A DNA stretch of 64,000 nucleotides from Maribellus sediminis (GTDB lineage: Bacteria; Bacteroidota; Bacteroidia; Bacteroidales; Prolixibacteraceae). Of this stretch, positions 25,476 through 32,351 are shown piece after piece. The stretch is taken from NCBI RefSeq assembly GCF_011799805.1, contig NZ_WXUB01000004.1, positions 62,001 to 126,000 of the forward strand. Direction: 5' to 3'. Every line of letters begins with the position of its first letter. Position 1 is the first letter of the stretch. The notes beneath the pieces were generated by a model, which searched no databases, was not told where the DNA came from, and was given only the letters and a program-made list of their open reading frames with translations. A program made the position numbers and the translations under genes.

Positions 25476-26540
25476 TTAATTCTTTGCAATCCAGTCAGCA
25501 ATCCAGTCGCCAACCTGCGAAGTATTGTACGCCGTGCCTTCGGCAATATCTTCTGTAACATAAGCTTCTTCCATTGAAGCCGCAACAGCATCACGAATCA
25601 GTTTTCCTTCATCCATCAGGTTGAAAGCATATTCAAACATCATGGCGGCCGAAAGAATGGTTGCAATCGGATTGGCAATATCTTTTCCTGCTGCCTGCGG
25701 ATATGAACCGTGGATAGGTTCAAAAACCGAAGTATGAATACCAATTGACGCAGAAGGCAATAATCCCAGCGAACCGGTGATCACACTGGCTTCGTCGGTG
25801 AGGATATCGCCAAACATGTTTTCGGTAACCATTACGTCGAAGTTTTTTGGCCACTGAATGATCTGCATCGCCGCATTGTCCACAAACATGTATTCGGTCT
25901 TGATATCCGGATAATTTGGAGCCATTTCCTGAGCCACTTCGCGCCACAAACGAGAGCTTTCCAGCACATTGGCTTTGTCAACTACCGTAAGTTTTTTATT
26001 GCGTTTGGCTGCAAATTCATATCCCAGTTTCAGGATACGCTCGATTTCTTCACGGGTATAAGTGTTGGTGTCGAAGGCAGTATTTCCGTTGTCTTTTCTA
26101 CCTTTTTCACCAAAATAAATACCACCGGTCAATTCGCGGATACAAACAAAATCGGCACCTTCAACCAATTCTCTTCTTAATGGCGACTTGTGCAACAGCG
26201 ACTCGAAAGTCTCTACCGGACGAATGTTAGCATACAAGCCCAGCTTTTTACGCATGGCCAGTAAGCCTTGTTCCGGTCGTACGGTGGCTTTGGGATTGTT
26301 ATCGAATTTTGGATCGCCGATGGCACCAAAAAGCACAGCATCCGAATTCATACACAATTGGTGAGTATCTTCGGGGTAGGGATCGCCTACTTGATCGATG
26401 GCAGCTGCACCGGTGATTCCGTATTCATATTCGAGTTCGTGATTAAATTTTTTTGCAACTGCTTTTACAGCTTTCATAGCCTGTTCAACAATTTCAGGCC
26501 CGATCCCGTCGCCGGGAAGTATTGCTATGTTTAGCTTCAT
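25476..26540 (-). CDS. leuB: 3-isopropylmalate dehydrogenase
   Basis: A 354-residue cytoplasmic NAD-dependent beta-decarboxylating dehydrogenase. Signatures: [15 protein letters not shown] at the N-terminus, RPVETF and [21 protein letters not shown] (substrate Arg and the Glu-Leu-Thr-Gly-Gly of LeuB rather than isocitrate dehydrogenase), [34 protein letters not shown], and [18 protein letters not shown] (NAD site). It converts 3-isopropylmalate to 2-oxoisocaproate and can also act on methylmalate in the citramalate route to isoleucine. It is the last gene of the operon, 20 bases after the synthase-like gene. Confidence 0.96.
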
Positions 26541-26560: not shown

Positions 26561-28144
26561 TTATGAAATGGAACTCATGAGTTTATCAAGAATTCCGGGT
26601 TTAAATTCGTTTTCGATAATGTTCAGCATGCGGATGGTTGCTTTGATGGCCGCTGCATTCTGATCTGGATCCAGACCTTTGGTTTTAAACTCGTGCTTGT
26701 CTTTCCAGGTAATTACGGTTTCAACCAAAGCATCGGTACGTCCCCCGGGAGGAATGGTTACCACATAGTCGATCAGTTTTGGCAATGGCCGGCTAAGCTC
26801 TTTGTAAATCTTCTTCAAAGCCTGCATAAATGCGTCGTACTGACCGTCGCCGTCGCTGTATTCTTCGTAAATTTTTCCGCCTATTTCAAGGGCAAGGTTG
26901 GCCAGTGGGCGCAGTCCCATGGTGTGACTTATCGAGAAGTTGACCACGCGTATGTTTTGCTCAATAAGATCATTATCCAGGGTGTCGGCCACAATGTAGG
27001 GCAGATCATCATTGGTAATGGTTTCCTTTTCATCAGCCAGTTCAATGATTCTATCGGTCACTTTTTTAAGCGACTCCGCATCCAGTTCAATCCCCAGCTC
27101 TTCCAGGTTTTTCCTGATGTTGGCTTTCCCTGATGTTTTACCAAGCGCATATTGTCTGATACGGCCAAAACGTTCCGGCAAGAGCTCATTGAAATACAGG
27201 TTGTTTTTACTGTCGCCGTCGGCATGGATGCCGCTGCACTGCGTAAAAACAAACTCGCCAATTAAGGGCTTGTTGGTCGGAATACGAATTCCAGAGAACG
27301 ACTCCACCAGTTTGGAAACTTTGTTGAGCTGTTGCTCATTCACATTGGTGGTCATTTTCAGGTGGTCCTTGATTGTTGCAATCACACTCGAAAGCGGCGC
27401 ATTTCCTGCTCGTTCTCCCAAACCGTTTACGGTGGTGTGAACACAACGTATCCCAGCTTTTATGGCATGAAAAACGTTGGCAATGGCCAGGTCGTAGTCG
27501 TTATGTGCATGAAAATCGAAGTTTGCATACGGATAGGTTTCGATCATTTCTTTGCAGAATTCGTAAGTCTCATCCGGGTCGAGAATGCCAAGTGTATCGG
27601 GCAACATGATCCGGTCCACTTTCTCATCCTTCAAATGCGAAACCATAAAATGAACGTAGTCTTTTGAACTGCGCATACCATTTGACCAGTCTTCCAGGTA
27701 AATGTTCACCTTAATGCCCATTTTATCGGCATTGTTGATCACTTTCCGGATATCGGCAACATGCTCTTCAGGTTTTTTGCGCAACTGTTCGGTAACGTGT
27801 TTGAACGAACCTTTACACAGCAGGTTAATGACTTTCCCACCGGCATCGTTGATCCAATTCAGCGAAATGGCATCATCAACAAAGCCGAGTACCTCCACCT
27901 TTTCGAGGTGACCTTTTTCTGCGGCCCACTTCATAACGCGTTGTGTGCCTTTAAATTCACCTTCAGATACACGGGCCGAGGCAATTTCAATACGATCAAC
28001 TTTTACATCGTCGAGCAGTACCTTAGCCACGCTAAGCTTCTCGGTCTCACTGAACGAAACCCCCGAGGTTTGTTCTCCATCCCGCAGGGTAGTGTCCATA
28101 ATGGTCAACTGTTTCCCTGTAACTTCTATTGTTTTGCCTGTCAT
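26561..28144 (-). CDS. Citramalate/2-isopropylmalate synthase family enzyme
   Basis: About 527 residues from the ATG at 28144 (an ATG at 28186 in frame is possible). HMGL-like TIM barrel: [16 protein letters not shown] at the start, [17 protein letters not shown] (metal-binding His-x-His), [14 protein letters not shown], then a C-terminal LeuA-type regulatory domain (about 390-527). It differs clearly from the operon's LeuA. The route acetyl-CoA + pyruvate to citramalate and on, via LeuCD and LeuB, to 2-oxobutyrate gives isoleucine precursors without threonine. This assignment is inferred from its place between leuD and leuB and from Ile codons in the leader; a second 2-isopropylmalate or homocitrate-type synthase is the alternative. 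Confidence 0.8.
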
Positions 28145-28206
28145 TTCTGTCTGTTTTTGTGAGCGAATTGATAATGCTGATTTCAAACGCTCTTTATTCG
28201 GCGAAT

Positions 28207-28794
28207 TTAAGCTGTCTCAAACTCAGCTATCGCATCTTTCATTGCCACCAGGTAATCGATGTCGTCCAAACCGTTTTTTAAGCAATGCTTTTTGTAAGGA
28301 TTGATCTCAAATTCAGTCGATTCGCCTGTTGATGCAATGGTGAATGTTTGTTTCTCAAGATCTACTTCAAAAGTCGAGTCGGAATCCTTTTCGATAGCGT
28401 CGAAAATCTTTTGAAGGAATTCAGGTGAAACAACAACCGGTAGCAGTCCGTTGTTCAAGGCATTGCCTTTGAATATGTCGGCAAAAAAGCTTGAAACCAC
28501 TACACGGAATCCGTAATCGTAGATAGCCCAGGCAGCGTGCTCGCGGCTCGATCCGCTACCAAAGTTTTTACCTGCAACCAGTATTTTACCTGAATATTTG
28601 TTGTCGTTTAAGGGGAAGTCAGCTTTCGGACTTCCGTCTTTTTCATACCTCCAGTCGCGGAACAGGTTGTCGCCGAATCCTTTGCGTTCAACTGCTTTCA
28701 GGAAACGTGCAGGAATGATCTGGTCGGTATCTACATTTTCAAGGGGCAGCGGTACTGCCGGTGTATTTATTACAGAAAATTTATCGTATGCCAT
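28207..28794 (-). CDS. leuD: 3-isopropylmalate dehydratase small subunit
   Basis: A 195-residue protein of the aconitase swivelling-domain family. It begins with [19 protein letters not shown] and holds [46 protein letters not shown], the substrate-binding signature. It pairs with LeuC to isomerise 2- to 3-isopropylmalate (and citramalate to 3-methylmalate). Separated from leuC by 82 noncoding bases with a weak GCGCTTAGCGC palindrome, and from the next gene by about 60. Confidence 0.96.
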
Positions 28795-28876: not shown

Positions 28877-30277
28877 TTACATCATTTCTCTTGGATCGGT
28901 TACTACTCCACTGACGGCTGCAGCTGCTGCTGTGAGCGGACTGGCCAGCATAGTTCTGGATCCCGGTCCCTGGCGGCCTTCGAAGTTTCTGTTGGTAGTA
29001 GAAACTGCATATTTACCTTCAGGAATTTTATCCTCGTTCATCGCCAGACAAGCTGAACATCCCGGTTGACGGAGTTCGAAACCTGCTGCTTCAAGAATGT
29101 CCACCAAACCTTCTTCTCGTATCTGGGTTTCAACCCGCTTCGAGCCGGGCACCAGCCATGCGTTTACGTTTGGCGCTTTTTGTTTGCCTTTTACAAAATT
29201 TGCAAAAGCACGAAAATCCTCGATGCGGCCGTTCGTGCAACTTCCAAGGAATACGTAATCTACCTGTTTGCCTTTCATTGAGTCTCCTTCGTGGTAACCC
29301 ATGTATTGCAACGATTTCAGGTAAGTTGATTTATCGGTTCCCTGCATCCCTTCGGTTGTAGGAATCTGATGTGTTACGCCAATTCCCATTCCCGGGTTGG
29401 TACCATAGGTGATCATGGGTTCAATGTCGGCAGCATCATAAGTGTATTCTGTGTCGAATACAGCACCGTCATCGGTTTTCAGTTCTTTCCATTTGGCAAG
29501 AGCGGCTTCCCATTCTTCGCCTTTTGGTGCGAACTGACGGCCTTTTACATAGTTGAACGTTGTTTCATCCGGGGCGATCATACCACCGCGTGCACCACTT
29601 TCGATACTCAGGTTACACAATGTCATCCGGCCTTCCATCGAAAGTCCGGTAATGGCAGAACCTGCATATTCAATAAAGTGACCGGTACCTCCACTGGTCG
29701 AAATTTTCGAAATAATGTACAGTGCAATGTCTTTTGCAGTTACGCCTTTACCCAGTTCACCGTTTACAGTAATGCGCATCTTCTTCGGTTTTGGCTGCAT
29801 AATACACTGGCTGGCCAGCACCATTTCCACTTCGCTGGTACCGATTCCAAAAGCAATCGCTCCAAAAGCTCCGTGAGTCGAGGTGTGGCTGTCGCCGCAA
29901 ACGATGGTCATTCCCGGTTGGGTCAATCCCATTTCAGGGCCGATAATGTGAACGATTCCATGTCCTTCCGACTGCAGATCGTGATAAACAATGCCATGTT
30001 CAGCACAGTTCTTTTTCAGCATTTCAACCTGGTTGCGCGAAAGTTCGTCTTTAATTGAAAGGTGCTGCTCCTGGGTTGGAACGTTATGGTCGGGTGTAGC
30101 CGTTGTTTTATCGGGGCGGAATACTTTTAATCCGCGTGTCTTTAACCCAAGAAAAGCTACCGGGCTGGTAACCTCGTGAATTAAGTGACGATCGATGTAC
30201 AATACGTTGGGACCTCCCTCAACCTGCTCTACCACGTGAGCGTCCCAGATTTTATCAAATAATGTTTTTGCTTCCAT
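28877..30277 (-). CDS. leuC: 3-isopropylmalate dehydratase large subunit
   Basis: The start is set at 30277 because GGAAAAG lies 5-11 bases before it and this gives 466 residues, the normal LeuC length; a start at 30289 is also open. Aconitase-type catalytic subunit: [51 protein letters not shown], and the [4Fe-4S] ligands in [14 protein letters not shown] and [10 protein letters not shown]. It carries out dehydration/hydration of isopropylmalate in the cytoplasm. Oxygen-labile cluster as in the family. The gene follows leuA by 134 bases containing a C-rich palindrome. Confidence 0.96.
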
Positions 30278-30330
30278 AATCTTTTCCATCTATAAATGGA
30301 TTCAACTTATATATTTTTGAAACTGACTCA

Positions 30331-30411: not shown

Positions 30412-31917
30412 TTAACTCGCCACCGGCAATTTGTTAATCGCATCAAGGAAAGCTTCCACTGATGCAGTAATAATATCGGTGTGTGCACCAAAACCATGGT
30501 AGATGGAGTCGTTATAGTCCACCTGCATGTGCACTTTACCAATATCGTCGCTACCGCGGGTTATGGCCTGAACCAGGAATTCTTCAATAACTACCTGGCG
30601 GTGAATGATCTTTTTAACTGCAGAAATGGCGGCATCAACCGGACCGTTTCCGGCAGATGTTGCGTCAAATTTCTCACCTGAAATATCGAGGCAAACGGTA
30701 GCCATTGGTTTCAGACTTTTGCCTGAAACTACCTGCAGGTAATCCAATTTGATACGTCGCTCTTTGCGCGTGGCATCGCCAACCAGCAACGCGATATCGT
30801 CGTCGCGGATGTCTTTTTTCTTATCGGCCAGTTTCAGGAACTCGTCGTATACCTCGTCGAGTTTTGCTTTGTCTAACTGGAAGCCCAATAATTCCAAACG
30901 GTGCTTCAATGCGGCACGTCCACTTCGGGCTGTCAACAAAATCGCTGATTCGTTGATACCAACGTCAGTCGGATCCATGATCTCGTAGTTCTCACGGTTT
31001 TTCAAAACACCGTCCTGGTGAATTCCCGATGAGTGTGCAAAAGCATTTCTGCCAACTACCGCTTTGTTTGGCTGAACCGGCATGTTCATCAGGGTAGAAA
31101 CCAAACGGCTGGTGTTGTAAATGTTTTTGGTATTTACACCTGTCTCAATTCCCAGTGCCTGGTAATGTGTTTTAAGTGTCATAACTACTTCTTCGAGCGA
31201 AGTATTTCCGGCACGTTCGCCGATACCGTTGATGGTTACCTCAGCCTGGCGCGCACCATTCAAAACACCCGAAATGGTATTGGCAGTTGCCATTCCCAAA
31301 TCGTTATGACAGTGTGTTGAAATAACTGCTTTATGAATGTTTGGCACATTTTCCATCAGGTACTTAATTTTTGCACCAAACTCGTGGGGGAGGGTATAAC
31401 CGGTTGTATCCGGAATATTTACCACTGTGGCCCCGGCTTTGATTACTGCCTCGATTACCCGAGCCAGGTATTCATTTCCTGTACGTCCGGCATCTTCGGC
31501 ATAAAACTCTACGTCTTCAACGTATTTCTTGGCGTATTTAACGGCTTCAACACCGCGTTCTATAATTTCTTCCGGATTGGAATTTAGTTTGTGGTAAATG
31601 TGAAAATCCGATGTTCCGATTCCCGTGTGAATACGTCCTTTCTTGGCGTACTTTAGCGATTCGGCTGCAACATCGATATCTTTTTGCACTGCGCGGGTCA
31701 GGGCACAAATGGTTGGCCATGTTACCGCTTTCGAAATCTCTACTACCGATTCAAAATCGCCAGGGCTGGAAATAGGGAAGCCGGCTTCAATTACGTCAAC
31801 TCCCAAATCCTGCAATGCTTTGGCAACTTCAATCTTTTCTACCGTGTTCAACTGACAACCCGGGACCTGTTCTCCGTCGCGCAAGGTTGTGTCGAAAATG
31901 TAAAGTCTGTCGCTCAT
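30412..31917 (-). CDS. leuA: 2-isopropylmalate synthase
   Basis: A 501-residue enzyme. N-terminal catalytic TIM barrel with [53 protein letters not shown] (metal-binding His-x-His and Asn), [18 protein letters not shown] and [16 protein letters not shown]-terminal regulatory domain (about 370-501, [15 protein letters not shown]) that binds leucine. It condenses 2-oxoisovalerate with acetyl-CoA and commits carbon to leucine. First gene of the operon, 137 bases after an attenuator terminator, so it is probably controlled both by leucine feedback on the enzyme and by leader-peptide translation. Confidence 0.96.
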
Positions 31918-32053: not shown

Positions 32054-32084
32054 AAAAAAGCCACCCTCTTATCTGAGAATGGCT
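32054..32084 (-). terminator. Attenuator terminator of the leu operon
   Basis: On the minus strand AGCCATTCTC-AGATAA-GAGGGTGGCT-TTTTT: a 10-bp stem with one mismatch and a T-run, 40 bases after the leader stop codon and 137 before leuA. Its first arm (CTGAGAATGG read on the plus strand at 32073-32082) can instead pair with the segment at 32118-32127. Confidence 0.85.
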
Positions 32085-32117
32085 TCTATTTTAAATCCAA
32101 TATTTTGTATCAACATA

Positions 32118-32127
32118 CCACTCTCAG
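32118..32127 (-). promoter_or_regulatory. Antiterminator arm
   Basis: Minus-strand CTGAGAGTGG overlaps the leader stop codon and is complementary, through one G-U pair, to CCATTCTCAG in the first arm of the terminator. When a ribosome stalls upstream in the Leu/Ile codons this arm is free to pair and prevent the terminator; when it reaches the stop codon it covers the arm. The mechanism is inferred from the arrangement. Confidence 0.75.
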
Positions 32128-32195
32128 TTCAACTTTTTTAGAAGAAGAATACCAAGAATAATATTTAGAATAGATATGTTGATGTTTAATCTCAT
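32124..32195 (-). CDS. Leu/Ile-rich leader peptide of the leu operon
   Basis: A 23-codon frame from ATG at 32195 to TGA at 32124-32126. It encodes 7 Leu and 6 Ile and no Val; the peptide reads MRLNINISIL then NIILGILLLKKLN. Such a density of regulatory codons, immediately followed by mutually exclusive antiterminator and terminator stems and then leuA, is the pattern of ribosome-mediated transcription attenuation. The downstream operon makes leucine and, by the proposed citramalate branch, isoleucine, which matches the two codon types. No strong Shine-Dalgarno is seen, as is normal in this phylum. Confidence 0.85.
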   Translation of the reverse strand: MRLNINISILNIILGILLLKKLN

Positions 32196-32351
32196 TTGAT
32201 CGTTTACTTACGATTTCCTGCAAATATCAAAATATTTTTCAAAAATGAAAACAAAACGGGCTTTTTTATACGAAAAGTTAAGAATAATACCACAAACTCC
32301 GATTCTGTTTAACTATTCTACACGCCGTTACCCCAAAAATCTACACCGATA

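Follow-up and report, generated by a model that had tools for sequence, protein, structure and literature searches.

Ribosome-mediated attenuation is a classic and well-known mechanism. The leu attenuator of Escherichia coli and Salmonella (leuL; Leu_leader in Rfam) combines a leucine-rich peptide with three hairpins, 1:2, 2:3 and 3:4, and a terminator before leuA, and the leader of the E. coli ilvGMEDA operon (ilvL) is a multivalent attenuator for isoleucine, leucine and valine. The nearest experimentally demonstrated multivalent case that we found is the Rli60 ilv-leu attenuator of Listeria, in which a 13-amino-acid peptide with branched-chain codons is described before ilvD (PMC5864092). 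A survey from 2010 stated that leader-peptide systems were known to its authors only from Proteobacteria and Actinobacteria, and added a case from the Firmicutes (PMC2965389); Rli60 came later. Motifs of upstream open reading frames (uORFs) from other phyla are listed elsewhere (PMC8632094), as are treatments of attenuation kinetics and of the part played by the stop codon (PMC1183508). For the Bacteroidota, the open-access literature yielded only brief hints. A transcriptome of Flavobacterium psychrophilum is reported to hold "strong clues" that operons for amino acids are preceded by leader-peptide attenuators (PMC9723704), and small open reading frames in long 5' untranslated regions of Bacteroides thetaiotaomicron are called "reminiscent of leader peptides" (PMC7366714). 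Both come from the same phylum as the leader described below, with which the former proposals are compared by general description, not by arms or codons; the named example of the latter lies before BT_4401, a hypothetical protein, and not before a leu or ilv operon.

The leader considered here lies on the minus strand of the window, the whole stretch of 64,000 nucleotides of Maribellus sediminis DNA that was analysed, and runs from 32195 to 32054, ahead of leuA-leuC-leuD-cimA-leuB. We hold with high confidence that it is a ribosome-mediated transcription attenuator for this operon, one that would sense charged tRNA-Leu and tRNA-Ile. That reading is built on the anatomy of the leader, its conservation, the identity of its codons, the alternative pairings open to its RNA and the matching leaders found at other operons. 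It resembles the leu attenuator of E. coli and Salmonella in its leucine-rich peptide, its three alternative hairpins, its terminator before leuA and its class of mechanism, but, as we understand the enterobacterial system, it differs in being bivalent for leucine and isoleucine, in having a cimA-like gene in the operon, in belonging to the Bacteroidota, in carrying its stop codon in arm 2 and in using its control codons as arm 1. It is like ilvL in that one leader serves several branched-chain amino acids, and unlike it in that two leaders share the duty in one genome, leucine and isoleucine at leuA and isoleucine, leucine and valine at ilvD. With Rli60 it shares a short branched-chain-codon peptide and the choice between antiterminator (2:3) and terminator (3:4), although Rli60 is a Gram-positive system with a 13-amino-acid peptide, and the likeness is drawn by description, not sequence (PMC5864092). 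No description of the leuA leader or of its family of arms was found in the open-access literature, and Rfam 15 has no family for it.

The original prediction had named the parts of an attenuator and their order, and all of them were found, on the minus strand, with a stop codon that falls inside a pairing arm. The features of the leader and operon are as follows.

32220..32255, minus strand: candidate Bacteroidota-type promoter, TTTG at 32255-32252 and TATTTGC at 32226-32220
32195..32124, minus strand: leader ORF of 23 codons plus TGA, translated as MRLNINISILNIILGILLLKKLN, with 7 Leu, 6 Ile and 0 Val codons
32153-32142, minus strand: segment 1, GGTATTCTTCTT, the Gly-Ile-Leu-Leu codons inside the leader ORF; partner of segment 2
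32127-32115, minus strand: segment 2, CTGAGAGTGGTAT, which holds the leader TGA; partner of segment 1 or segment 3
32084-32073, minus strand: segment 3, AGCCATTCTCAG; partner of segment 2 (antiterminator) or segment 4 (terminator)
32068-32054, minus strand: segment 4, GAGGGTGGCT plus T-run, predicted intrinsic terminator
30412..31917, minus strand: leuA, 2-isopropylmalate synthase (NCBIfam NF002086, 749.5 bits, over the cut-off)
28877..30289, minus strand: leuC (NCBIfam TIGR00170, 662.3 bits, over the cut-off)
28207..28794, minus strand: leuD (NCBIfam TIGR00171, 194.8 bits, over the cut-off)
26561..28186, minus strand: cimA-like gene, probable citramalate synthase of the isoleucine route (NCBIfam NF042433 CimA, 669.8 bits, under the cut-off of 950)
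25476..26540, minus strand: leuB (NCBIfam TIGR00169, 461.9 bits, over the cut-off)

Leucine and isoleucine account for 13 of the 23 leader codons, so that, as in other attenuators, the short ORF is rich in the amino acids that the operon produces. Its TGA falls within CTGAGAGTGG. The hairpin AGCCATTCTC / GAGGGTGGCT is followed by T6, with its 3' end at 32054, and would provide an intrinsic terminator with a U-run ahead of the first structural gene; 136 nt separate its end from the ATG of leuA at 31917. Calculated hairpin energies are -5.8 kcal/mol for 1:2, -15.5 for 2:3 and -16.6 for 3:4. The TTTG and TATTTGC elements upstream are taken by us to be a candidate promoter motif of the Bacteroidota type. 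The earlier reading is refined in one respect: arm 1 of the switch is made up of the Leu/Ile codons.

On the strength of the sequence, translation, stalling, termination and the response to amino acids would proceed as follows. RNA polymerase would transcribe the leader, and its 23-codon peptide would be translated by a ribosome. With ample leucine and isoleucine, the ribosome should arrive at the UGA within segment 2 and mask that segment, which would leave segment 3 to pair with segment 4 and cause termination 136 nt ahead of leuA. When either amino acid is scarce, the ribosome would stall within segment 1 or at a codon before it, and the exposed segment 2 would take segment 3; no terminator would then form, and transcription would run on into the operon. 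The AUU CUU codons for Ile-Leu would act as sensor and competitor arm alike, because their RNA resembles segment 3.

This scheme was explored with a ribosome-masking model, in which the RNA behind the ribosome was masked codon by codon and the transcript folded up to segment 4. When the mask reached 9 nt beyond the A-site codon, 2:3 capture in the window's leader exceeded 0.5 at every stall from codon 2 to codon 21 and was not obtained at codon 1 (0.46), codons 22 and 23 or the stop; the model thus predicts antitermination at 12 of the 13 Leu/Ile codons. Mask edges of 6 and 12 nt move the 3' border by one codon. All 19 leaders modelled (of 33 intact ones, the window's included) lost capture when the ribosome stood on either of the last two sense codons or on the stop. 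In the model the control codons are placed as in known attenuators, a stall freeing segment 2 and a ribosome at the stop covering it. The pairings 1:2, 2:3 and 3:4 are mutually exclusive, though 1:2 is weak in 8 of the 19 leaders. Folded without a ribosome, the 19 leaders gave a 2:3 probability below 0.1 in eight cases (the window's among them), 0.35-0.38 in three and 0.51-1.00 in eight. Segment 1 appears to sequester segment 2 unreliably when no ribosome is present, and untranslated leaders may for that reason not always terminate. For the complete transcript of the window's leader, the model favors 3:4 at every ribosome position, which implies that the switch would need kinetic, co-transcriptional folding, as do other attenuators.

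Several controls address how readily such an arrangement might arise by chance. The Leu+Ile fraction of the leader peptide, 0.57, is the highest among 1,077 ORFs of 15-40 amino acids on both strands of the window, the runner-up reaching 0.47. Only 2 strong T-tailed hairpins (9 or more stem pairs with no mismatch, including 4 or more G-C pairs) occur in the window, and a competing upstream arm is found only at that of the leader. The fold of the leader RNA also beats all 200 of its dinucleotide shuffles (z -3.74). A built-in promoter and terminator scan gave no terminator call at the leader hairpin, and its 2 sigma-70-like matches there are at chance level, the shuffled mean being 2.2. Rfam 15 at its gathering thresholds gave no match in the window, Leu_leader and T-box included, and a relaxed search returned only sub-threshold matches with E of about 1 to 9, such as Phe_leader (17.1 bits, gathering score 55). 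At both thresholds Rfam gave nothing to place the leader among the T-box riboswitches, and among 8 related loci searched against Rfam 15 the only matches were SRP RNAs.

The content of the operon makes sense of a leader that reads two amino acids. LeuC, LeuD and LeuB are known also to process citramalate towards 2-oxobutyrate. The fourth gene of the operon is probably closest to citramalate synthase, scoring below the strict CimA cut-off but far above the best LeuA model (339.3 bits). Its top PDB match is the Leptospira citramalate synthase 3BLE at 405.8 bits, with the second at 192.9. The presence of this gene among the leu genes suggests that the enzymes of the operon are able to make both leucine and an isoleucine precursor. 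Of 35 same-genus genomes, 32 have a cimA-like gene that starts on the strand of leuA and no more than 3.5 kb downstream of it, and the remaining 3 carry it on a separate contig. The same genome also encodes a threonine deaminase (TIGR02079, 627.2 bits, over the cut-off), so that isoleucine would have two routes. The prediction of an operon serving leucine and isoleucine is accordingly borne out by its gene content and is refined in that the deaminase represents a second source of isoleucine.

A search for LeuA in the window's genome and 60 relatives gave matches in 53 of the 61 at E<=0.001. Thirty-seven of the genomes, the window's included, belong to the same genus, the start of leuA is present in 35, and all 35 upstream regions (L001-L035) were inspected. 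An intact uORF and terminator are found in 33 of them, so that the conservation of peptide and stems that had been forecast for close relatives, and that is expected of an attenuator, is present. Of the two others, L034 is truncated by a contig end and retains the last uORF codons and the arms, and L030 (G023:C104, from a same-genus genome of 2.2 Mb) has a degenerate leader before an intact leuA, with the promoter motif reading TATTCGC, segment 2 unrecognizable and the terminator mismatched. Across the 33 intact leaders the uORF is 19-23 codons long and differs by whole codons; one leader (L028) has its stop one codon earlier. The distance from stop to segment 3 is held at 35-42 nt, against 46 to 192 nt for the spacer between terminator and leuA. 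The sequence TTTGC occurs 21-29 nt upstream of the leader start codon in 31 of the 33, and was not found in L019 and L021.

The stems were analysed in an alignment of 24 of the 33 intact leaders. RNAalifold returned 1:2 as the consensus helix, with 98.3% of cells able to pair; 2:3 pairing is possible in 99.5% of cells, and AGCCATTCTC is invariant in all 24. No base pair in these 24 leaders was changed on both sides, and shuffled controls paired as well as the observed sequences, only slid controls being lower. The compensatory changes that the original prediction had looked for are therefore absent within the genus and appear instead between distant leaders.

The clearest of these is in the same genome. 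A second leader (L156; G000:C6:1025778-1025852, plus strand), located outside the window, precedes ilvD and encodes the peptide MRVINNILVLLVVILGFSEEG, with isoleucine, leucine and valine codons and the same layout as the leuA leader. Relative to the latter it has GAGGAAGG for GAGAGTGG in segment 2, CCTTTCTC for CCATTCTC in segment 3 and GAGAAAGG for GAGGGTGG in segment 4, changes that are matched three ways, and more matched variants are found in L138 and L044. The main evidence for covariation in the proposed stems is this comparison of a few distant leaders (L156, L138 and L044).

Beyond the genus the leader becomes sporadic. Among 13 leuA upstream regions from other genera of the same order, six (L036, L037, L038, L039, L041 and L044) have a leader whose peptide and arms have diverged, and none was seen in the other seven. 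From a phylum-wide sample, in which 114 of 296 genomes had LeuA at E<=1e-150, another 29 stretches upstream of leuA, each about 300 nt long, were read by eye; a leader was seen in four (L126, L127, L138 and L141) and not in the other 25. A search for perfect hairpins found none in 5 of 13 leaders supplied to it, probably on account of stem mismatches. In L036, L037 and L038, which come from other families, the ORF stops 24-27 nt before segment 3, its frame apparently running through segment 2, and these imply a ribosome geometry unlike that of the window's leader.

A wider view came from a peptide-blind pattern of the arms, GAGARTGGT..GCCATTCTC..GAGRRTGGC, which was scanned over one genome per species for 84,980 species. 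It returned 76 loci, and every one of them precedes a gene of branched-chain amino-acid synthesis or gltB: 55 leuA, 17 ilvD, 1 ilvE and 3 gltB. The downstream gene was assigned by the top tblastn match within the 1,200 bases that follow, with an NCBIfam check on 10 of the 21 non-leuA loci. The loci include ones from Draconibacterium, Maribellus, Mariniphaga, Mangrovibacterium and Sunxiuqinia, from other Prolixibacteraceae and Bacteroidales, from Saprospiraceae and from a Chitinophaga MAG. Conservation of the arms in this set is built into the pattern, which puts no constraint on codon content or on the downstream gene; the set also overlaps the same-genus one (for example at L123 and L008), so that the two are not independent.

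For the codon counts, the frame was set by the TGA of the arm, no rule of composition was applied and the last codons, up to 20, were tallied. Leaders before leuA contain 27.3% leucine, 26.8% isoleucine and 2.0% valine (1,004 codons from 51 of the 55), whereas those before ilvD contain 19.5% leucine, 16.7% isoleucine and 24.9% valine (257 codons from 13 of the 17). The other two frames reach at most 16.7% leucine, 9.4% isoleucine and 6.6% valine. Carrying no weight among the leuA rows are L073, which is cut, and L110, L118 and L120, whose stop just before the arm leaves 0 codons, and a further row, L086, is likewise without weight, with 4 codons out of frame. Among the ilvD rows the same applies to L065, L069 and L107, which have no TGA at that point, and to L052, with 0 codons; L072 was tallied outside its real frame. 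The codons hence follow the operon, with valine where valine is made, and the earlier claim that this leader reads leucine and isoleucine without valine is supported by these valine-rich ilvD leaders, by the cimA-like gene and by the Leu-Ile exchanges described below. Related putative switches with matching codons precede other branched-chain operons in Bacteroidota. They offer a comparative case with a natural control, two leaders in one genome with similar arms but different, operon-matched control codons, and point to an RNA family that matches nothing in Rfam 15. Bacteroidota largely dispense with Shine-Dalgarno initiation. Attenuation requires a ribosome close behind RNA polymerase, and these leaders could for that reason serve as a natural reporter of transcription-translation coupling in the phylum.

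The position and choice of the codons are also informative. In 50 leuA leaders, Leu and Ile make up 430 of 550 residues at codons -15 to -5 and 23 of 200 in the last four codons. For leucine, the leuA leaders use mainly CTT, CTC and CTA, in contrast to ten genes of the window, which favor CTG and TTG. The control codons form stronger duplexes with segment 2 than do synonymous codons drawn from those ten genes (mean z -1.54 over 51 leuA leaders), and 22 of the 51 fall within the lowest 5% of their own synonymous shuffles, although the sequences are related and not independent. This indicates that the control codons can double as sensor and arm 1. CTA, the rarest leucine codon in the ten genes (17 of 342), accounts for 62 of the 274 leucine codons in the leuA leaders, an excess that recalls the rare-codon debate on the enterobacterial leu leader (PMC1183508).

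Two other explanations of the locus dispense with attenuation by the peptide, and both seem to us very improbable. The ORF might encode a functional small membrane peptide, or one like a type I toxin, its Leu/Ile residues forming a transmembrane helix and the hairpin being an ordinary terminator. The peptide is indeed hydrophobic, and has a basic C-terminus in many relatives (MTKNINISILNLIIGILLLTRKK). However, in 23 equal-length same-genus leaders, departures from the majority at the columns where Leu or Ile prevails (9-19) replace Leu by Ile or Ile by Leu in 27 instances and bring in valine once and phenylalanine once, a poor fit to a hydrophobic-helix constraint, for which valine, phenylalanine and methionine would be expected. 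Several relatives have lost one to three codons, some from the hydrophobic core, valine is added in ilvD leaders in step with the operon, the stop codon sits within a pairing arm, and all 76 arm matches lie ahead of branched-chain genes or gltB. Slighter still are the chances that termination is independent of the peptide, the hairpin being a plain terminator or part of a metabolite- or tRNA-binding (T-box-like) riboswitch with an incidental uORF. The 3:4 hairpin is stable by itself, and similar terminators, AAAGCC..GGCTTTTTT, are found elsewhere in the genome, yet Rfam gives no T-box or riboswitch match, the competing arm is specific to the leader hairpin within the window, and the codons, frame and stop position of the uORF are conserved and fit the operon downstream.

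A third alternative accepts attenuation and restricts it to leucine, with the isoleucine codons serving the AUU CUU pairing of arm 1 and not the sensing of isoleucine. We consider it rather unlikely, though with more to commend it than the other two. Likeness to segment 3 (CAUUCUC) is required of segment 1 and, read in frame, yields Ile-Leu codons, the advantage of the control-codon duplexes over synonymous ones is what it would predict, and threonine deaminase is another source of isoleucine. Against it, the isoleucine codons outside segment 1 (columns 5, 7, 9, 13 and 14) are conserved or exchanged almost only for leucine, and the operon includes the cimA-like gene for an isoleucine precursor in 32 of 35 genomes. 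An attenuator responsive to both amino acids is accordingly preferred.

A further view of the arms was obtained with a model, R1, of the arms and terminator, trained on 57 sequences, of which 43 came from the 76 pattern loci and 14 were others. In the window's genome it gave 13 matches at E<=1, led by the leuA leader at 72.9 bits, which was in the training set, and the ilvD leader at 45.5 bits, which was not; the next scored 31.7. Eight of the 11 weaker matches were read, and look like ordinary terminators, of the AAAGCC..GGCTTTTTT kind mentioned above. R1 is not specific at low scores, so that its tallies at E<=0.01, 36 of 119 in the order and 50 of 197 in the class, are not counts of true leaders. 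Among the loci fetched, tblastn placed leuA, ilvD or gltB downstream of 20 of 29 from the order set and ilvE downstream of 3 of 28 from the class set.

The gltB loci form a separate observation. Ahead of this gene, which encodes the large subunit of glutamate synthase, stands an arm of similar sequence, TGAG[AG]ATGG, together with a short uORF that ends at the TGA of the arm. Such leaders were seen at 7 of 30 loci fetched from the order sample, in which 40 genomes matched (L225, L226, L228, L229, L230, L232 and L242), and at 3 from the pattern scan (L075, L081 and L124). Their 199 codons comprise 2.5% Glu and 2.5% Gln, the commonest residue being lysine at 14%. The idea that they are rich in codons for nitrogen-rich residues proved weak, since K+R+H+N+Q+W amounts to 0.37 in frame and 0.31 in the other frames of the 10 leaders. 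It is conceivable, if doubtful, that a single ancestral RNA device (TGAGARTGGTAT ... GCCATTCTC ... GAGRRTGGC) is spread across the Bacteroidota and has been re-aimed by swaps of its control codons, and that the gltB version reads something other than one amino acid. Were this so, the device would read Leu/Ile before leuA and Ile/Leu/Val before ilvD, and before gltB it might sense, for example, nascent-peptide arrest or the general speed of translation under nitrogen limitation.

A final feature lies between segments 2 and 3, at 32103-32099 on the minus strand, where the window reads AAAATATT and other leuA leaders often have ACGATATT. ATAT is kept here in all 24 aligned same-genus leuA leaders, and the ilvD leader of the same genome likewise has ACGATATT. 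This ATAT-type element is possibly an RNA polymerase pause site.
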